DNA of 64,000 bases from Glutinoglossum americanum (Eukaryota > Ascomycota > Geoglossomycetes > Geoglossales > Geoglossaceae). The notes beneath the pieces are model-generated. The model was not told the DNA's origin and ran no database searches. It was given only the letters and a program-made list of their open reading frames with translations. Location of the stretch: the NCBI GenBank assembly GCA_020080175.1, contig JAGHQL010000031.1, positions 108,185 to 172,184 on the forward strand, written 5' to 3'. The number at the start of each line of letters is the position of its first letter. Within the stretch, counting starts at the first letter, position 1. Shown here piece after piece: positions 51,484-64,000 of the stretch. The position numbers were made by a program, and so were the translations under genes.

Positions 51484-52675
51484 ATGGCTCTCCAGGCGAT
51501 TAAATACTCACGTGGTGAGCTTCGAATACTCGATCAGACCAAATTACCGCATCAGGAGCAATATGATTCCTTGCGATCCAGCAATGATGCGTGGCATGCT
51601 ATCAAAAACATGCGGGTGCGCGGTGCTCCTGCCATCGCCATTGTCGCCGCATTAGCCCTCGCTGTTGAATTAGAAATCATTCAAGCCGATGGCAAGTTAT
51701 CAGAGATCGCGGAGGAGATTAAACTGTTTGTGTATGAGAAGCTGGACTATTTGGTTACCAGCAGACCAACAGCGGTGAATCTCGCGGATGCGGCAGGGAA
51801 GCTGAAGAAACTTGTAGATGGTGCAGCGGCAGGAAAAGAGGCCACGGGGGAGAAGGTGAAGGACGCGTATATACTAGCAGCGGAAGAAATGCTGGTAGAC
51901 GATGTGCGGGATAACGAGAACATCGGACGACATGGAGCGGAATGGATTATCAGGAACTGCGATGGTGGAGGGATGAAAACCCGCATACTCACACATTGTA
52001 ACACGGGGTACGCACATCGGATTGCTCCTCCTGCAGAGCACACGAGTCTAACGGATAGCCGCCCGTCGCAGGTCGTTAGCAACGGCGGGATATGGCACCG
52101 CGCTCGGAGTCATTCGCTCTCTCCACGCCAACGGGTCCCTCGAGCTGGCTTTTTGCACCGAAACCCGGCCTTACAACCAAGGCTCTCGGCTCACCGCTTA
52201 TGAACTTGTACACGACGATATTCCAGCGGTGTTGATAACCGACTCTATGGCCGCAGCCCTGCTTCAGCAAGAGAATATCGCAGCCGTCGTTGTAGGTGCC
52301 GACCGCGTCGCTGCCAATGGCGATACCGCCAACAAGATTGGCACATATGCCCTCTCGATTCTAGCGAGACACCACGGCGCCAAGTTCCTAGTAGCTGCCC
52401 CTCGGACGACAATTGACCTCGGTACAGCATCCGGGAAAGATATCATCATTGAGATGCGGCCTGGCGAAGAAGTAGGGCGAGTTAGAGGCCCTAGGGATTG
52501 CGGGGGAGGCGAAGTCGACCCGGATTGTTGGGAGACCGTTAGCATAGCACCAAAGGGCATTAAGATTTGGAACCCATCGTTTGACGTGACGCCTGCTGAG
52601 TTGATTGACGGGATTGTGACAGAGGTTGGAGTTGTGGAGAAGGGGTCTGATGGGAGTTTTCACTTGAATATATGA
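51484..52675 (+). CDS. mri1: Methylthioribose-1-phosphate isomerase
   Basis: Two exons (51484-52007 and 52072-52675) encode 375 residues. The enzyme isomerises methylthioribose-1-phosphate to methylthioribulose-1-phosphate in the methionine salvage pathway in the cytosol. It belongs to the eIF2B-alpha/beta/delta superfamily. Family motifs include [45 protein letters not shown] (active-site Cys) spanning the splice junction, [16 protein letters not shown] and [20 protein letters not shown] (catalytic Asp). The end [15 protein letters not shown] is typical. The exon join is confirmed because it recreates GSLATAGYG. Length and spacing match fungal Mri1, rather than a regulatory eIF2B subunit. 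Confidence 0.95.
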
Positions 52676-53706: not shown

Positions 53707-53881
53707 ATGAGAATGAATCGAGAAACCTCTCGCCGCAGGGTCGACGGACGGATCCGATGGCTACCCACCGCAAGTGGTTGGTTTCAGTATGCCCGTCCGA
53801 CCAAGGTGCACAACACGACGGAGCCAAAAACGGTAGATGGACAGAGGTATGTTCCTACGTTCCTCCATCACCTCCGACATT

Positions 53882-53919
<38 letters not shown>

Positions 53920-54362
53920 TTCCCTTCTTCCCTCCTTTCTTCCCTTCTATTCTCTTCCACCCTCTTCGTCCTCCCCTTCTCCCGATGCTCCAAACAGGCA
54001 AGCAAAGACTAACCCTATCCAGGACTGATCTGAAAACAAATAGGTGATTACAAGCAACCTTCCTACAACTCCAGGTCCAAGTCCGTTTAGTTGTTGGCCA
54101 TCGAGCTTATGTCAATTTTTAATTTTTTTTGTCCAGCTCCTCGACCGGCGATAAATTCGTCTGTCTCTGGCCCAACTGCAGTACGAGTAGAACCTTCTCG
54201 CGGCATAGAGACCTCGACCGTCACCAGCAAGTCTACCATGTGGCTCCCACGCGCTACGGGTGTCCAGTCACCGGCTGCTCTCGCACCACCGCAGCTCAGG
54301 GCTTTCAGAGGAAGGATACCCTCGCCGCGCACCTACGGACGAGACACCCCGGATTTACCTGA
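53707..54362 (+). CDS. Small two-finger C2H2 zinc-finger protein, copy A
   Basis: Two exons (53707-53846 and 54137-54362) encode 121 residues. Exon 1 gives a basic N-terminus (MRMNRETSRRRVDGRIRWLPTASGW). Exon 2 carries two fingers close to the C-terminus: FVCLWPNC with DLDRHQQVYH (C-x4-C-x14-H-x4-H) and GCPVTGC with AAHLRTRH (C-x4-C-x17-H-x4-H), then GFT and stop. Zinc ligands are all present, so binding of nucleic acid is plausible. The 290-nt intron is far longer than the window's norm and contains a (TTTC)n microsatellite and a T-run before the CAG acceptor. The join is supported because copies B and C have the same intron position and phase. Exon 1 shares an RWLPxAxGW motif with copy B. 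No known family name is offered. Confidence 0.7.
53881..53918. repeat. (TTTC)n microsatellite
   Basis: About nine uninterrupted TTTC units followed by a diverged TTCC/CCTT-rich tail to about 53955. It lies within the proposed intron of zinc-finger copy A. Confidence 0.95.
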
Positions 54363-56127
54363 CTTTTTTGTTCTCTACGTTGCGTGGCGTGTGACGCCGT
54401 CCAGCGAGGTCGTTGAAGGCGTTTCTGGCGATGTTTTGGTGCGCTTTGTTCGGATAGGGAGAGCACGCACGGGCCGGTTGAAGGGCGACACACCACACCG
54501 ATCCGATCCGATCCGATCCTAATTTCTATGGCGTCCTTCTGCTTCTTTTCCTTTTTCCCCCCGTACTCCGCTACGTAGTGGTTAGCCGTATTCGTGGACA
54601 TGGCGTCCCAAATCCAATCAAAATCCAGAAAAAGGAAATTATCACCCACATATTCCCACGGCGTCGTTCCATTCCGCCTTATTTTTTTAGTTTTGCCGGT
54701 TTGAATCCAACGCCGAGCCAGCCAACCAACCATTCCACTCCCCCGCCCTCGCGCTCGCCGCCAATAAGAATCCGGATCGCACGAAAACCTTAAAACCCGG
54801 CACACACACCCAGCACCCCAGCACCCCAGCACATCCACGCACGTCCCAGCACACACCCAGCTCAGCGGGGCCAACTAGCGCCCCCCCCCGTTTCAGGCAG
54901 CAAAACCCAGACGGCAAAACCCAGACCACCGGAACGCTAGCGGGAATCCACCCCCACGGATTCCCACTATAAAGAAACGACATCCCCTCCGACCCACCCC
55001 GCACTTCTCCTTGCATAACGAACAACACCTCACAGCGAACCCAAACGCAAAAACGCAAAAAACCGTCCACGGGCGCGCGACCGAACGGGGACGGAGGACA
55101 CGGAACGAGGACGACCAGGAGAGGCGATGAGGAAAAAAAGAAAAAAGAAAAAAAAAAAAAAACTCTGCAACCTACACGCTCCCCCCCTTGCCGAAAACCG
55201 AGGGGTTCCTCCCAGCGAGGAGGAGAGGACGAGGCACCCGCTCACCCACCCCCCAGATCGATCGAGCACGCACACACACACACACCGCGCTAGCCAGCAG
55301 CGTCGCAACGCCCACACCAGCAGCCGACCGACCGCGCGTCCCAGGGACCGAGCGCTCGGGTCCGCTCCCCCCACCCCCCCCTCGCTTTGGAAAAAAAAAA
55401 AAAAAACCGGTCGGGGCTGGAATGGGAATGGGGCTGGGTGTCTGTGCGTAGGGGGGGGGGCTGGAGCGGTCTGGGTCTGTCTGGAGCGGGATGGTTGGGT
55501 TGGTTGGTTGGTTGGCTGTTAGGGGTTTTTTTGGGGAGGAGGAGGAGGAGGGGGATTGGGTTGGGTTGGTGTGGTGTGGTGTGGTTCTTGGTTCTCGATG
55601 AGGAGGAGATAGGGGGATTGGGTTGGGTTGGGTTGGGTTGGTTCTTGGTTCTCGATGGGGAGGAGAGAGGAGGATGAGAGGAGGATGTAGTGATGATGGC
55701 GGGTTTTCGGCGCAGCCATCTCTTCCTTTCCCTTCCTTCCTCTTTTCTCCATCTCTTTTCTTTTTCTTTTTTCCATTCCCCCTCGGCGACTTCAATCCGC
55801 GTCCCCAACGCTTTCATCTAGCCCGTGCCTAGATGAAATAGCCCGCTTCAATCCTCTTTTTCTTTTTTTTTAACCCTTTGATCTTGTCCTGAGCGTAACG
55901 TTCCAAACGGTAGGTTAACACGATATCCCTCTTCTTTTTTTTTTCCTTTTTCCTTAATGTTATCTTTAATTCCCTTAAAATTTTATTTCAAATTGAAGAG
56001 AAAAGGACATCGCGTGCCGATGCGACCAAAAAAAAAAAAAAAATCAAACAGACCATCTCTGCCACACCCTTCTCGCCAGTCACTTCCTAGTTTGCTCATT
56101 ATCCCAGCCCGACCGGCCGACCTTTAT
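54363..56127. other. 1.8-kb low-complexity region between zinc-finger copies A and B
   Basis: No credible gene. It contains GATCC repeats (about 54502-54520), CCCAGCA repeats (54810-54835), A-runs (55142-55160, 55388-55403, 56030-56042), a CA tract (55269-55286) and G/T-rich repeats (55495-55665). Long open frames here (for example 55795-55172 minus) are Pro/Lys/Arg-biased products of this composition. Confidence 0.5.
55495..55665. repeat. TTGGG-rich G-strand repeats with a duplicated segment of about 57 bp
   Basis: Runs of GGTT/TTGGG (55495-55520, 55556-55572, 55616-55642) and GGTGT units are interspersed with a segment containing TTCTTGGTTCTCGATG that occurs twice about 57 bp apart (near 55584 and 55641). 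Repeated G-triplets could fold into a G-quadruplex. The unit is not the TTAGGG telomere repeat. Confidence 0.7.
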
Positions 56128-56683
56128 TCATGCACTGTCCGGATGATGGGCCCGCATATGTTCAGTGAGCTTGTCCTTTCTGGCAAACCCCGATTCCTGG
56201 GCGGGACAGCCGTCTACAGGACAGTCGTAGCGCGAAGGCATATGGAAGGTCCTTTGGTGACGATCGAGGTCTTGGAACCGCCCAAAAGTCCTTGTCGGCT
56301 CACAGCCTTCCCAGAGGCAGACGAACTTCTGGACGCTGGGTTTGGGATAAGCGATTCAGCTCTCGCGAGCAGGGTAGCGGGCCGGAGCGGTCACCTTTTG
56401 TCCGCTCGGCTGGTTTTGGGTGGAGATGGGGTTAGCCGGTGACGTTATGGGTGTTGGTCGGGGTATCGAAAGAGGCGTGTGCTGAAGGGAATAGAATGGA
56501 TGAAAGGAGAACGTACTCTGTGTCGACTGGATGGTGCGTTGAGGGCAAGGGTAGTTTCCCTGATCTCATTAGCAACGATCCGACAAAAGGAGTGCGAATG
56601 CGCATGTTGCAAGACCAACCGTTTGCAATTGGCAGCCATCGATCTTGCTCTTTGAGCTGGTCTTCTCCCTTTCCTTTGTTCAT
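56128..56683 (-). CDS. Small two-finger C2H2 zinc-finger protein, copy B
   Basis: Two exons (56683-56517 and 56335-56128) encode 124 residues. Exon 1 gives MNKGKGEDQLKEQDRWLPIANGW and ends GKLPLPSTHHPVDT. Exon 2 encodes QKFVCLWEGC with DLDRHQRTFH, then DCPVDGC with KLTEHMRAHH, ending PDSA and stop. All zinc ligands are present. The intron (181 nt, GTACGT donor, CCCAG acceptor) lies at the same phase as in copies A and C. The linker between the finger cysteines and histidines holds a TFGRFQDLDRH motif shared by the family. It is open and looks potentially functional. Function is unknown; a nucleic-acid-binding role is inferred from the fingers only. Confidence 0.7.
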
Positions 56684-57724
56684 GGACGAGTTTATTGTGT
56701 AAATACGTTCCGAGTACCTGAGCTCTAAGCTCCAACTGCATGGGAACGTCGACGTTATTTATATTCGACGTGCTGCAACAACACGTTATCGATTTTCGAC
56801 GATCTATTTCTTGGCCATCTAACTTTAGCGGAACATTCGCTGGCAAACGATCCTCGCCACCCCAGGGACTACGCAGCTAGAACCCTTCTTAGGCGCATCT
56901 AGGACCCCGTTCGCACATGGCATCTTTATGTTTCAAAATGCCACGCCTTAGCTCATGGTTGGATGGCTGCAGCAGGAAATGCCCGCGGAGGTCGTCGCAT
57001 CATGAGGGACTTTCGTCTCACTTCTATTGGCTGGTACATATGTATAGATACTCGAAGTGTACGCCGTTGTTGGCGAGTTATTAGTCGTCCATGCGTGGAA
57101 ACTATTCATCCCATCGAGTACTCTATTTTCCACAATGCCTCTCCGCGCAAGAACACATGGCAACTCATACCCTGGGCGCTGCGCTTCAATCCTTATTACC
57201 ACTCGCCACCCGATAACTTGAGTAGAGAGGAACAGTCGATCTCAGGATGGAATTACTCGTACTACGCACTCTAGAAAATATAAGAAAAGCGGCTGATGTC
57301 GGCCATTTTGTGGGATGATGCACGGTGGTCCAAGCTCCAGTAGATACCCGAAGCCTGTAAGGCGGTAACGAAAATCACAAGCACGTGTCTACTTTTTCGC
57401 AATTTGAACGCGCCTCGACTTCCTTACAAAGACCGCATCGCAGCTGCAATTGCGGACTTGGGATCGCAAAAGAGGCCTAGTTTCGGGGGCGTAGCAGAAA
57501 AACGACAGCTTGAACGGAAGATTCTGTCGCGACGCTTCAAGAGCGGGTCGTCGAAGAAGGTCGTCTAAGCAGATCGTCGAAGCAGTGTCGGGGGGCATAT
57601 CTACGGGGGATGCCGTTCGCTGCGTGGCGATGCCATAGTAGGCCGAGAGTTACATTTACCTCAGCCCCCTCCGATGATCGGTTATCTTTAGGGTCGCAGT
57701 GCGCAACAAAACACGCGCGGAACA

Positions 57725-57749
57725 TTTTTTTTTTCCGGGAAAAAAAAAA
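57725..57749. repeat. Poly-T/poly-A perfect hairpin
   Basis: Ten Ts, a five-base CCGGG spacer and ten As form a perfect inverted repeat. It may be a fold-back remnant of an insertion or a homopolymer assembly effect. Confidence 0.6.
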
Positions 57750-58260
57750 CAACTGGAGATCCCCGTCGCAAAAACACACGATTCCCTGCCTGTGCGACGA
57801 TGGGCCAATGCTGTGGTGTCGTGACCAAGTGGGTGATGACAGGACACACGGGCAAACGCGCTATGACATCGATGGGCTCCAGCCGCCGCCTCGCAAAGTG
57901 TTTTGTTTGGTGCCGTGCTATTGACCAGATAGCAGGGAAAGCACGCACCAATGACAGGGGGCAATGTTCCTGTCAGCCTGGCGCTGGGGGTACGCACCAA
58001 CCAGGCAACAGCACCTGTATCCTTTTCCCTCGCGTAGGTTGTACTCTTAGAGACCGGCCTGATTGTGCATATTACAGAAGGTGGTTAGTGGTGGGTGAGA
58101 TTGAGGTGCCTCCCATCTAACCCGTTCCGAAGTGGCGCGCGATTCGGACTTGCGGCTAGCGGTTCTTTTTTTTCTTTTTTTTAAACGATACATTGGAATA
58201 CCATTTGTTCCCCCCAAAGTGTCTCGAGGGGATACAACGGACTTTCTCCACCTGACACAG

Positions 58261-58297
58261 CCCACAACCCACAGCCCACAGCCCACAGCCCACAGCT
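58261..58297. repeat. CCCACAG heptamer array
   Basis: About five tandem CCCACAG units (the first with AAC in place of CAG). It is a simple minisatellite directly downstream (minus-strand sense) of the zinc-finger copy C stop codon. Confidence 0.85.
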
Positions 58298-58324
58298 CCG
58301 CAAAGCGCCGCCACCCAAAACAGG

Positions 58325-58840
58325 TCAATCAGAGCCCTCAACCCCAGTATGATCCACCCGCATATGCTCAGCGAGTTTATCCTTCCTCGGAAACCCCCGT
58401 CCCGGGACGGCGCGAGGGCAACCAGTTACCGGACAATCGTGGCTCACAGGAGATACGTGGTAGGCCTTTTGATGACGATCGAGATCTTGGAGCCGCCCGA
58501 AAGTGCTTGCCGATGCGCAGCCAGGCCAGACACAGACGAACCTCCCGGTGCTGAGTCGGTATTAGCTCTTTTGCTCCCATATGCAAGGCGGTGGACGAAT
58601 CGGATGGTCACCTATTATCCGCTTGGTTGGCTCTGGGTGGAATTAGTCCATGATCTAATGGGTGGGGGATCGAGTGATTAAAATAGAAGGCGCATTGAAG
58701 GGGATGGAGAGGAGGGATGGTAGGACGTACTCTGGCTCTACTGGATGCTGTGCCGGAGGCAACGGCAGTTTTCCTGGTTCCGTTAGGCATGACTGAATAA
58801 GAAAGGTAAGAGTGTACACGTTGAAAGGCCAACCGTTCAT
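58325..58840 (-). pseudogene. C2H2 zinc-finger gene, copy C (frameshifted)
   Basis: The same two-exon layout as copies A and B is visible (58840-58731 and 58551-58325, with the same GTACGT donor and CAG acceptor phase). Exon 1 encodes GKLPLPPAQHPVEPE, close to copy B. Its N-terminus is shortened by an in-frame TAA just upstream of the ATG at 58840. Exon 2 opens with GRFVCVWPGC, then a run of four Ts (58503-58500), where copy D has three and copy B keeps frame, shifts the frame before QDLDRHQKAYH. The rest of both fingers (DCPVTGC, KLAEHMRVDH) continues in another frame. As read, the product loses the histidines of finger 1 and all of finger 2. A homopolymer sequencing error is an alternative to a true frameshift. 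Confidence 0.65.
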
Positions 58841-60098
58841 GGCTAGAAGTCGGTCTTGTTAGCTGGTGTTCTTCAGTTCTCTTATTCTTGGATGGTCTGT
58901 ATTGTTCGAACTCGGATTCCTCATTCTAAGGATCCAAACATTGCCGGGGGAATATCGACATTAAATATCCGTGCGTGCTGCGGCAACACACCACGGGGAA
59001 ATTTATCGAGAGAATTCATTCGTCGCCCTTGAGCAGCAAAATGGCTCTAGAATCACCTCAGTAAAACAGATTTTGAGACTGTGTTGCTGTGTGTTTACTC
59101 GGAACGCCACCCCCGCCATCCACTGTCGTGCGAGGCCACCTCGGTAGCAAAATGCGTTGCAAGATAACCCAACAAGGCCCATTAAAATCACATATTTCCA
59201 GGAACCAAGCGCATATAAGAGATCCCCTGAAGTAGTTCTATAAATCCTATAATTTAAGTTGGAAAAAAAACTGCAGTGACCAGAAAATTGCACGTGGCAG
59301 ATGTGACGGAACAAGTCAATATCACGCCAAACACCTACAACTCGGCGCTCGGGCCTCGCGCTGCCGGGGTCTGGGGCAACGCCTTGCTATCGATCACCGA
59401 CTCGCCTAATCTACTGCCCGAGCTAACCCGGCGAATCACCGAGCCGCCGTGGTGGATCCGGTCGAAGCAGCTCTTATTGCGTCAAAATTTTCAAAGCAGG
59501 GAGCGCTATTTTCCATATATTGAAATATGCAGAAAAAAAAAATTTTTGGTTGCGATCGCTCTACACCATCCGAAAGATATCGAGGTGTATTTTTGAGTTT
59601 ACAGACTGTGAACCGCATCGATACGATATTTCGCCGGATACGGCATGAAACGTAAATGAGAAGGGGGTTTTTTTTTTTTTTTTTTTTTTTGGCTTGAAAT
59701 ATTGCGGAAATGCATGGAAGGGGAGGTGGAGCAGCGATTGCGGGATGGAGATTGATAATGATGGCGGTAAACTTCTTGCCCGTAGAGGTTGTGGAAGGTC
59801 CCCCGGGGAGCCACAACGGTTCTGCATATTGCTTTTCTGTGCGGCTCTGTCGGAATATATGGGTTTTTGTGCGTCGAGTCAGCTGGGGCGGCAGATTAAG
59901 CCGAGCACTCGCTGAATTTTGACACCCAACATCACGCATTGCTTGTGTTAGACATTAAAAACCGGCTTCTGCACTACTCCGCCATCGCTGCAGAAATTTT
60001 CAATCAGCCAACCAAGTTCTTCTATGCTCTTTCCTCTACCGCTGTGATCTTTTCGTGCATGGCCCGACATTTGTTGTCTAGCATTTGCTATCATAAAC
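58841..60098. other. Region between zinc-finger copy C and the transposase fragment
   Basis: The 58920-59050 part shares short blocks with the upstream flank of copy D (ATTAAATATCC, ATTCGTCGCCCTTG) and is probably duplicated promoter. A T-run of more than 20 lies at 59667-59690. Remaining frames (59276-59596 plus, 59939-59436 minus) show no family resemblance. Confidence 0.45.
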
Positions 60099-60101
60099 CT
60101 A

Positions 60102-60449
60102 CTTTGGCGCATCTCGTGCATGTTCGAGTTTCAGAGCATGCGAAACTGCATGGTCGTAGTCACATGGTCTAGCTTTTTCTCCAAGATCAAAAATAGTCCT
60201 TTTAGAAACTCCTGTAATTTCCGTTACCCGCTTGACGGGATCACCTTCTTCAGCGAGGGCTAGTGCTCGTAGACGTACAGCGACATAATGTTTCTTAGAG
60301 ACCGTGGTTTTTGAGTTGGTTTGGTTGGGTAGGCTGGAATTCCACTCCGCTTTGGTTTGGTTGAGTAAGCAGTCGGCCAGCAGGGAAAACCCCATCCCCC
60401 ACTCCACACATTTTTTGGAAAACCCCTTATGGCCCTTAATTAAATCCAC
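60102..60449 (-). mobile_element. Tc1/mariner-like transposase N-terminal fragment (degenerate)
   Basis: A minus-strand frame contains a helix-turn-helix segment, RALALAEEGDPVKRVTEITG followed by VSKRTIFDLGEKA, and then LKLEHARDAPK and a stop codon. The order resembles the DNA-binding start of fungal Tc1/mariner-type DDE transposases, where LLEHVEDAP-like sequence is followed by a Gly/Arg/Pro-rich segment and the catalytic domain. No DDE domain follows in any frame, so this is a truncated relic. Residues before the helix-turn-helix are not clearly transposase. Terminal inverted repeats were not found by eye. Confidence 0.5.
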
Positions 60450-60929
60450 TGCAGCTCAAGGGATGGGGTGACATACAATCGGAGGGGGGGTTGAGTGGGG
60501 TACCGCGACGCAAGGCTTGAGGAAAACCAAACAGTTGGTTGCTCCGCATCCACGGGTTCGAAGTGTGATAAGCGAGGTCTAGCGTCCGGTAAATTCTCTT
60601 TTTCTATTTGGTTGGTTTCGCTTAGGAGAATGGGATGGGACGACTTCCTCGCAGGCAAGTAAAGAGCAAACACCGCACATCTTTAATATGTAGAATGCTA
60701 TAACGGGATGTCTATAGAGAGAGAGAGGGGACGCGATTCCGAAGAGGGTGACCAGCTTTTTTTTTTCTTCTTAGCCATTCATGGAAACCCCGTGACATGC
60801 ATTGGAGCGTCAACAAAGTCAATTGGGACAATATCTAGTGGGGGATCCGCTGCACCAAATTTTTTTTTCTTTCGCCAGACTCCCCCCGGGGACGAACCGC
60901 GCTCTACCTGATGACTAAACGCCCATCTT
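60450..60929. other. Region downstream of zinc-finger copy D
   Basis: About 480 bases without a gene: an AG repeat at 60716-60728, T-runs (60758-60767, 60860-60869) and a short tRNA-like stretch at 60878-60925 on the minus strand. Confidence 0.4.
60878..60925 (-). other. tRNA-like remnant (possible SINE head)
   Basis: The minus strand reads GGGCGTTTAGTCATC and then AGGTAGAGCGC, which resembles the 5' acceptor strand and D-arm/A-box of a tRNA. A GGTTCGTCCC block similar to a B-box follows almost directly. There is no anticodon arm and the stems do not pair well, so this is not an intact tRNA gene. A tRNA-derived short repeat is one explanation. Confidence 0.3.
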
Positions 60930-61497
60930 TCACAACCCCTCAGACTCCGCGTGGTTGGTCCGCATATGCTCGATGAGTTTATCCTTCCTCGGAAACCCCC
61001 ACCCTGGAATGCCGTGAGGACAGCCGGGTACCTGACAATCGTGGCTCATTGGAGATACGTGGTAGGCCTTTTGATGGCGGTCGAGGTCTTGGGGCCGTCC
61101 GAAAGTGCTCTTCGACTGACAGCCGGGCCAGATACAGACGTATCTCTCGCTACCGGAGGTGATATAAGATCTTCTGTACTCATGAGCGGGGTAATGAGTG
61201 TGGTAGTCACCTTTTATCCATTTGGCTAGTTTTGGGCAGGGTTAGTCGGTGACCTTGTGAGTGTTTTGATGGGTTGGTCTAGGGATTAAAGGAAAGGAGA
61301 GGTTTTGGGAAGGATTGATGGTCGAAATATTAAAAGAGGCGATACCTAGAGGGATACAAAGGGAGGGATGGGTGGCAGGACGTACTCTTGTTCGGCTGAA
61401 TTGCGTGCCAAAGGTAGTGGTAGCTTTCCTGGTTACAACTCAGCACGACGGTAACCAATGTAAGTATACTCACGCATTGGGAAAACCAACTGTTCAT
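60930..61497 (-). pseudogene. C2H2 zinc-finger gene, copy D (exon 1 disrupted)
   Basis: The finger exon is intact at 61149-60930: RYVCIWPGC with DLDRHQKAYH, then DCQVPGC with KLIEHMRTNH, ending AESEGL and stop, with all zinc ligands kept. It is closest to copy C. The exon 1 equivalent (61497-61386) keeps the same GTACGT donor and can be aligned base by base with copy C. However, it contains a 2-nt length difference and a TAA in the homologous frame before PGKLPLP. Read from the ATG at 61497, the frame does not join correctly to the finger exon. Either this copy is a pseudogene or it uses another first exon that I cannot see. Confidence 0.6.
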
Positions 61498-62647
61498 AAC
61501 CGGCGGCCTTCGGTTTCGCGCGTACAGTTGGTGATCCTCAGATGCTCTATCCGCGGAGGTGCCGTCTGTATTGCTCGAATACGAGTTCTTCGTTCAAAGC
61601 ATTCGAGTTCTACGAGGGCATGCCGACATTAAATATCCTGTGTGTTACAATGCCACACGGACACGACCGTGGGGTTTCGACAGATTTATTCGTCGCCCTT
61701 GCGCACCCTAATGGCCGTGGATCTAGTATCGGCATCATAATAGCAAATGTGGTACTTTGTGGCTTGGTGGGGTGAGTTGGATTATTGAATTCAGCTCTAT
61801 TGCAACCAAACTATTGCTTAAAAGTGAGGCGGGCGCTGAGCGTTGTTTGAAACGACGCCAGTTGTGTAACGAACACTAGGCCACAAAAGCGGCGTGAACG
61901 AGCCACACATGGTCTTGGCTTCCTAAGGATCTGCTGTCTTTAACAGCCTGTCGGGCAACAAGTTCCCACAAGCTGATTAATGTGCTTACGGATTAGACCC
62001 CCAAATCCGTGACGAAGTTCGTGTTCGGCTTCCGGGGGAAATCCATATTTCGTTCGTCCGTGCTCGAGGCGCAGCGACCAAATGACAATCGCTGCGTGGC
62101 TTGGAAACTCTTGCGTCGCTGCATTCGTACATGGAGTATTACAACGGCTCGCCGATGACGTTCCGTCGGTCGGTTATCCGGTCCCACCTCTGGCTGCTTT
62201 ATGAGTGTGGGTTAGAACGCTGCGCCGGGCAGGATCAGATTTCTCCAACGGGTGATCCTATCCGATCATTGGACGTGTCAGAATGAATCAAGTATGAGGG
62301 GGATCGAGTATGACACTTGCACCGATAGGACGGCTCTGCGAACCCGCCACTCCTTCGGATTAATTAAGCAGGGTTCTATCGAAAAGTCTGATAAAGCCGG
62401 GCAAGATAGCATTACACTAATGACACGCGAGGGGATGGTGGAGAAATCTCTCGCCGGACCTCTTGCATCTCGCGTCAAGACAGCCCACGTATGCAACTAG
62501 CGGGGGTTGATTATAAGATCTGCGCATTGTTGCCTAGAACAGCCGAGCGAGCCTGATCCTTGCCAGGGTTAGGGCTCATGCAGGCGAATCAGAGTTGTGC
62601 TCCGCGCGCACGCGGTTAGCCCTGCGATGCATCTAAAAGCAGCAAAT
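61498..62647. other. Gene-poor region upstream of copy D
   Basis: The first 200 bases contain duplicated upstream sequence of the zinc-finger unit (ATTAAATATCC near 61629, ATTCGTCGCCCTTG near 61687). Beyond that no gene, RNA or mobile element is recognised. Confidence 0.45.
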
Positions 62648-62881
62648 TCGATCTAGATATCGACCGTTTGACGAATGTCACGCGAGGTCAAGCCCGCAGC
62701 TAGAGGTGACTACTCCTCCCGCAACGGTCGATCTAGATATCGACCGTTTAACGAATGTCACGCGAGGTCAAACCCGCAGCCGTAGGTGACTCCCCCTCCC
62801 GCATGTTCGATCTAGATATCGACCGCCCAACGAATGTCAAACGAGGTCAAACCCGCAGCTATGGGTGACTCCCCCTCTCGG
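62648..62881. repeat. Three tandem copies of an 80-bp unit with inverted-repeat core
   Basis: Units start at 62648, 62728 and 62807. Each begins TCGATCTAGATATCGACCG, followed by ACGAATGTCA, CGAGGTCAA, CCCGCAGC, GGTGACT and a CT-rich end. Copy 2 has arms CGGTCGAT and ATCGACCG around six bases. Differences between copies are substitutions, concentrated outside the core. It lies 1.2 kb beyond the last zinc-finger copy. Confidence 0.9.
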
Positions 62882-63954
62882 ATTCTAGGCTCTCTCGACG
62901 ACTCCAGTGTAACAACCAAAGATTTGCCGCCCCGCGAAACCCGCTAGAGCGGTACGGGGAAGAGGCTGCGATGGCTTATCGCCCCGAGGAAAAAACGCGG
63001 TCTGGACGATAGACAGATTGATCGGTTAACTGAATCCGTGAGTGTTTTCTCCCCTTCTTTTTCTTTTTGGCCCGGTCGCAAAAGTGTCTGGAATGTCGAC
63101 GGGGGTGGTGGAAGATCCCCAGCATGCTGGATGCAGGATCTCCGGGCTTTCGGAATCGTTATGTTGAGCATACATGCTGCATTGCATACATCTCGCATAG
63201 GTTCTTGACAGAACGATCCTCCAGGCCTGGAAGAGTCTCTCGGGCTCTCTCCTTGGGTTCGTCAGACAAAGCGGCATTAGATAATGCCGCCTTTGCTTTT
63301 TGAGTCCGACCGGTGCATATGTTAAACCAGCGGGCCGCATGGAAACTTCCGCAGTGGCGCAGCACGGAATATTGTTGGTTCACCGCATGTTTTTTTGCTT
63401 TTTGGAAGAGATTCCTGGACGTGGTTGGGCGGGGGGCAGATCGTCGCTGCTTTTGCGATTTACCTGTAAACCACCATTCGCCATTCACCATTGCCCCCGG
63501 AGGGACAACGCATCAGGCGAGGCACCTATGAAAAACGGAGTTGGGAAGAACGATCGCGAGACTATTGGTTGACCCCACCGACAACCGGTCCAGATTAAAG
63601 AAAAAGAAAAAGAAAACGCCTCGAGCAACATGGCAGCCCGCGCTGCCCAGCATAACGGGTCAGGTTTCTAGGGAAAACCCGCCGCGAGAAAAAAACACGT
63701 GCGATTCGATTATGGATACGGCGACAGCGTAACACCCCCGCTTCGCTCTACTCTCTCCCTCTCGACCCGACAGATTGCGTGGCAGACCGCGAAAAAAAGA
63801 AAAAAGAATCACCCCACCATTACGAAGCATCCCCTTTACGCGACCAGAAAAATTACCCCTAACAACTACAATCATCCCCACGTCCTCCTCCTCTCCTACG
63901 CTACCCCGTACGTCATAAAAAGTAAAATAAAACCCTTTTTCCTTTCCCCCCCCC

Positions 63955-63956
<2 letters not shown>
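62882..63956. other. Gene-poor window end
   Basis: No coding region can be supported. A perfect 9-bp stem hairpin (GCGGCATTA, two-base loop, TAATGCCGC) sits at 63271-63290, and A/G- and C/T-rich stretches follow from 63590. Open frames of 60-110 codons match nothing I recognise. Confidence 0.45.

Positions 63957-64000
<44 letters not shown>
63957..64000. other. Poly-C run at the window end
   Basis: An unbroken C-run of 44 bases reaches the window edge, preceded by CCCCCCCCCAA. The unit is not telomeric (no CCCTAA). Together with the poly-C beside the gap at 9.7 kb it looks like a sequencing or assembly artefact at a contig end. Confidence 0.7.

Follow-up and report, generated by a model that had tools for sequence, protein, structure and literature searches.

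A local cluster of four small two-finger C2H2 zinc-finger genes near a contig end in Glutinoglossum americanum

We describe here four small predicted genes, A to D, that each encode a pair of C2H2 zinc fingers and lie close together in the genome of the earth-tongue fungus Glutinoglossum americanum (Geoglossomycetes; 25.8 Mb in 317 contigs). The window, meaning the whole stretch of 64,000 nucleotides that was analysed, covers positions 108185–172184 of contig C233 (GenBank JAGHQL010000031.1), and its right end is the end of the contig. The four two-finger exons, one on the plus strand (A) and three on the minus strand (B, C and D), are all at most 10.3 kb from that end, at about 9.6–10.3 kb for A and about 2.5–3.1 kb for D, and the cluster sits between the contig end and an IF-2B family gene (ending at 52675; family by domain scan), which we take to be MRI1. 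A–D make up a small, local expansion in tandem of a type of fungal C2H2 protein that is already known and that probably binds DNA.

In each copy a short first exon is followed by a predicted GT..AG intron in phase 2 and then by a single exon that codes for both fingers and runs to the stop codon. In copy A, exon 1 (53707–53846, plus strand, with an ATG at 53707 or 53713) reads through without a stop as far as the donor, in the phase that exon 2 requires, the predicted intron (53847–54136, 290 nt) reads GTATGT..TCCAG, and exon 2 occupies 54137–54362. On the minus strand, copy B has exon 1 at 56517–56683 (ATG at 56683), a predicted intron of 181 nt at 56336–56516 and exon 2 at 56128–56335; copy C has exon 1 at 58731–58840, a predicted intron of 180 nt at 58551–58730 and exon 2 at 58325–58550; and copy D has an exon-1 region at 61386–61477, a predicted intron of 236 nt at 61150–61385 and exon 2 at 60930–61149. 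A first-pass annotation, made from the letters of the DNA, had proposed introns of about 180–290 nt at the same phase and fingers that end near the stop, and both points are borne out, the introns as predictions and the fingers with the last His 4 to 7 residues ahead of the stop in A–D. It had also held that the fingers of B–D have no in-frame ATG before them; there is indeed no Met in these exon-2 open reading frames (ORFs), and the same is true of A. The predicted proteins have 88–124 residues, of which exon 1 codes for 15–55. The ATG of A at 53713 aligns with that of B over 18 gapless codons ending in RWLP, with 6/18 residues identical. Copy C begins at a later ATG (58840), without the start used by A and B, and its exon 1 codes for 36 residues. 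The exon-1 region of D is intact only when a predicted extra intron of 45 nt (61473–61429, GTGAGT..CAG) is removed, which gives an ATG at 61477, 15 residues from exon 1 and a protein of 88 residues; the limit of 61497 previously assigned to D is an ATG in another frame. Promoter-side blocks of C (58945–59045, minus strand), with the TATA-like TATTTAATGTCG and TTCGTCGCCCTTG, match their counterpart in D (61613–61715, minus strand) at 84–85% in a repeat comparison, and B was aligned to them.

Four two-finger exons lie at the places where the first-pass annotation had put them. A 25-row profile hidden Markov model (HMM) that contains no window sequence recovers them from the 912 window ORFs at E 4.1e-22 (B), 1.1e-21 (A), 6.7e-21 (C) and 1.2e-19 (D), the fifth-best ORF reaching only E 0.65; the maximum among 18,240 shuffled ORFs was 12.1 bits, against 66–74 bits for A–D. 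This test is partly circular, because the 25 rows were themselves selected by matching profiles that include the window copies. Outside that circularity stands the match of a profile built from the four copies to solved C2H2 proteins in the PDB, where GLI (E 6.5e-8), ZIC3 and AEBP2 score best by sequence, at E 6.5e-8 to 6.7e-7. Pfam models match the finger ORFs of A–D below their cut-offs only.

Alignment of the copies places all eight zinc ligands among 28 columns that are invariant in 4/4 copies, so that C, and not only A, B and D as first reported, keeps the full set. A structure model of B exon 2 (mean predicted local distance difference test score 77.3) has a helix after each Cys pair (helices at 27–38, 52–55 and 60–70) and very short strands, and the ligands of A–D together with this model agree with the general description of a C2H2 finger as two Cys and two His in a beta-beta-alpha fold. 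The top fold matches of the B model are DNA-binding C2H2 proteins, although absence of a family from these lists does not exclude that family. Among them is the two-finger peptide of PDB entry 2drp, presumably that of Tramtrack, which binds DNA with two C2H2 fingers only. At helix positions -1, 2, 3 and 6, the putative DNA contacts, the residues of B, C and D are R, Q, D and R for finger 1 and R, D, K and E for finger 2 (the finger 2 positions of A, C and D being taken from the alignment); the exceptions in A are position 2 of finger 1 and positions 3 and 6 of finger 2. Because these putative contact positions are constant in B, C and D, they speak for a binding function that has been kept rather than for an arms race. 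A Trp stands between the cysteines of finger 1 in 4/4 copies and between those of finger 2 in 0/4. The finger 1 arrangement is shared with the tandem CWCH2 (tCWCH2) pairs of Zic/Gli, PacC, Zap1 and Aebp2; in such pairs, Cys-X-Trp-Xn-Cys occurs in both fingers and the double Trp marks finger-finger packing (PMC2837044). Since finger 2 of A–D is without this Trp, the defining double-Trp motif is absent, and membership of A–D in the tCWCH2 class was rejected (PMC2837044).

Exon 2 of A–D is under purifying, not diversifying, selection. The ratio omega of nonsynonymous (dN) to synonymous (dS) divergence in exon 2 is below 0.5 in 6/6 pairs (AB 0.22, AC 0.37, AD 0.46, BC 0.36, BD 0.22 and CD 0.24), and because dS is high (0.71–2.0) the values other than that of C and D are rough. 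For C and D, dN is 0.17 and dS 0.71; in the coding frame dN/dS comes to about 0.24, compared with about 1 in the two other frames when stop-containing codons are left out. Neutral simulation of this pair gives P 0.0011 for the synonymous count and P 0.0003 jointly with the retention of a frame without stops. In exon 1, B, C and D differ by 8 changes in the six codons for GKLPLP, a stretch picked after inspection, and 8/8 are synonymous (neutral P 1.5e-4). The first-pass annotation had thought of selection with rapid turnover; the selection is there, as purifying selection, and rapid turnover is unsupported because the four helix positions are identical in B, C and D. In a tree of the finger sequences, A–D form one clade (support 0.90) with the order (A,(B,(C,D))) and supports of 0.90, 0.85 and 0.94. 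The tree has 29 rows, 26 of them window and genome loci and 3 of them proteins; from 43 domain rows, a single match was kept for each ORF, provided that it scored at least 22 bits and was long enough.

Relatives of the four genes are spread through the same genome. The first-pass annotation had suggested that copies be counted, and a genome search with B yields 37 places at E<=1 (37/37 candidates scored), 23 of them at E<=1e-3 including A–D; at least 19 further places thus match B at the stricter level, and the best-scoring match outside the window lies on contig C145 with 51% identity. One relative is the annotated protein FGG08_003984 (P0005, 301 aa, "C2H2-type domain-containing protein"), which like A–D has its two fingers in the last exon at the C-terminus and, going by the annotated protein, a phase-2 intron (55 nt) before that exon. 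It is these further matches and this annotated relative with its phase-2 intron that make A–D a local expansion of a known kind. FGG08_003984 matches a 10-row profile, A2, at E 3.0e-30, its own finger exon (L022) being one of the A2 rows; A–D, with two fingers near the C-terminus in their last exon, match the 25-row HMM described above at E 1.2e-19 to 4.1e-22. The two differ in that the intron of FGG08_003984 lies 24 residues before the first Cys rather than about 4–8, the linker between its fingers (of the VRPPLEDL type) is longer, and close to 200 residues precede its intron, compared with the 15–55 predicted in A–D. A long N-terminal region, which is perhaps not a defining feature, is thus lacking in A–D, whose predicted first exons encode no more than 55 residues; some relatives have about 200–270 residues before the fingers (L019, L020 and P0005).

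A phase-2 intron before the finger exon is common in this two-finger C2H2 family, and it is not universal, because some paralogs have a phase 0 candidate, have no candidate or need no intron. Ten paralogs, L022 included, were scanned for candidate introns with a pattern that does not contain the true donor of L022 (a second L018 copy, which holds Ns, was left out); the longest candidate is in phase 2 in six, in phase 0 in two, and two have none. By eye, L013 appears to be in phase 2. Outside the scan, the ORFs of L016, L019 and L020 run into the fingers and an intron is unneeded. A second local group lies on another contig (C32:36641–53724; L017, L018 and L019), where a span of about 17 kb holds four two-finger C2H2 genes with Q-, N- or Pro-rich stretches ahead of the fingers.

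Among proteins outside the genome, the four-copy profile matches 4 proteins at E<=1e-3 (of 341 candidates) and a wider profile matches 5 at E<=0.01 (of 1,111). Neither profile matches an annotated protein that corresponds to any of A–D, which therefore appear to be unannotated in the sources searched. "Undescribed", as the first-pass annotation had it, thus fits A–D themselves as far as these two profile searches reach and does not fit their kind, which is known from FGG08_003984 and from 19 other places. The best matches of the four-copy profile are a JGI protein (P0001, E 4.3e-11) and BKA66DRAFT_400147 of Pyrenochaeta sp. MPI-SDFR-AT-0127 (P0002, partial, E 9.3e-11), both of which have two C-terminal fingers and the GGRGFPRKDK stretch as in A–D, with TFGR in P0002 and TFKR in P0001. 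They differ from A–D in having 38–39% identity to B and in falling outside the A–D clade of the tree. Precomputed Pfam assignments place PF26176 on P0001 and P0002, and PF26176/PF26177 are assigned among the relatives P0001, P0002 and P0004. With residues 205–301 of FGG08_003984 as query the sole match is the protein itself (1/13 candidates), and the listings of a literature search held nothing for the family on PF26176/PF26177, on small or tandem two-finger genes, on the genome of the species or on C2H2 proteins of Geoglossomycetes.

We consider it reasonably probable that A–D arose by local duplication as a small and seemingly unannotated branch of the two-finger C2H2 family in this Pezizomycotina genome, and that their products likely bind DNA. 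Of this account, the finger motifs and their ligands, the purifying selection on exon 2, the shared intron phase and the relationship of the copies are seen in the data. Local duplication beside the gene read as MRI1 would have set A apart first, then B, and last C and D. Each gene, if expressed and spliced as predicted, would give a protein with a short N-terminal stretch from exon 1 and two C-terminal fingers from exon 2, which could enter the nucleus and bind a short DNA site with its two fingers. Its role there might be that of a regulator, or it might compete with the longer family members, which have an extended N-terminal region. Several points in exon 1 weigh against so simple an account. 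This exon is the weak part of the models and is not intact alike in all copies, so that the single architecture proposed by the first-pass annotation holds for the intron phase and the finger exon, but not for exon 1, where the start of C lies further on and a stop closes the expected frame of D. This stop immediately precedes PGKLPLP in the frame matching exon 2, with no ATG after it, and the 5' end of D may be in decay. Over all 15 aligned exon-1 codons, moreover, changes by codon position number 7, 4 and 13, a weaker signal than that of the GKLPLP codons.

The same observations raise the possibility, which we regard as doubtful, that the cluster is in decay, so that A and B would still be functional and C and D would be pseudogenes with a finger exon that has yet to be broken. 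Neither C nor D has the start of A and B, D has its stop in the expected frame, and in A and D the base-pair indices show a slight lean towards what repeat-induced point mutation (RIP) would produce. Over gene stretches of less than 800 bases, TpA/ApT and (CpA+TpG)/(ApC+GpT) are 0.88 and 0.97 in A, 0.69 and 1.11 in B, 0.65 and 1.21 in C, and 0.89 and 0.94 in D, compared with 0.77 and 1.19 for the remainder of the window; no such lean is seen in B and C, and GC content is not lowered. The indices of D reach the thresholds used in the literature. However, the low omega of C and D in exon 2 and the joint neutral P for this pair run counter to such decay, and C has a complete alternative reading, as does D if the predicted extra intron is removed.

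Somewhat unlikely, in our judgement, is that these are two-finger proteins for protein-protein or RNA contacts, or microprotein-like inhibitors of longer members, rather than DNA-binding regulators of their own. The presence of just two fingers, and the absence of the long N-terminal region that L019, L020 and P0005 have, would suit such a role, as would the Trp between the finger 1 cysteines, given that Trp in both fingers marks finger-finger packing in other families (PMC2837044). Yet the unchanged putative DNA-contact positions of B, C and D argue for the DNA-binding regulators that we favor. That A–D are lineage-restricted microproteins, finger pairs lacking the extended N-terminus of their relatives that would compete for the sites or partners of longer two-finger regulators, seems improbable to us. 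A role as secreted or host-directed effectors under diversifying selection, raised by the first-pass annotation, is very unlikely; the small size, the local duplication and the fairly hydrophobic predicted N-terminus of C (by eye) could be cited for it, but the N-terminus of A is basic and not hydrophobic, every pairwise omega is below 0.5, and the proposal has no positive support. An origin as parts of a transposable element, the outcome that would have undone the first-pass proposal, was rejected as hardly credible, for although a fragment resembling a transposase, with an HTH_23 domain, is found between C and D (60099–60455, minus strand; 10 other places in the genome at the protein level), the Pfam matches of the finger ORFs include no transposase or other transposon domain, a DNA query with the C gene matches C and D only, with no copy on another contig, and three flank-DNA queries, in which very common words were skipped and some repeats could escape, find one other genome place each of about 90–200 bp and no repeat-borne copies.

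A–D look like ordinary conserved DNA-binding proteins of an established kind and open no new biology by themselves. They illustrate that short, intron-split zinc-finger genes can escape fungal annotation and yet be under selection, and A to D make up a small natural series whose finger exon stays conserved as the first exon and the start codon drift. This can help gene prediction and the study of how small DNA-binding proteins evolve.

The other scanned neighbours are of housekeeping types, a WD40 protein and a protein with HSA plus Myb domains that we assume to be EAF1. The contig terminates in a run of 55 C (63946–64000 of the window), which is probably an assembly or sequencing limit and not a chromosome end; a subtelomere check found no TTAGGG or CCCTAA run of two or more units anywhere in the window. 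Nearer the cluster, a tandem repeat with a unit of about 80 bp and 2.9 copies lies at 62647–62877, and the sole other genome place found with a query covering it, on contig C252, has 86% identity to the adjoining window positions 62239–62438. A 90-bp stretch at 59212–59301 has 90% identity to C272:2971–3060 and is possibly a short dispersed repeat.

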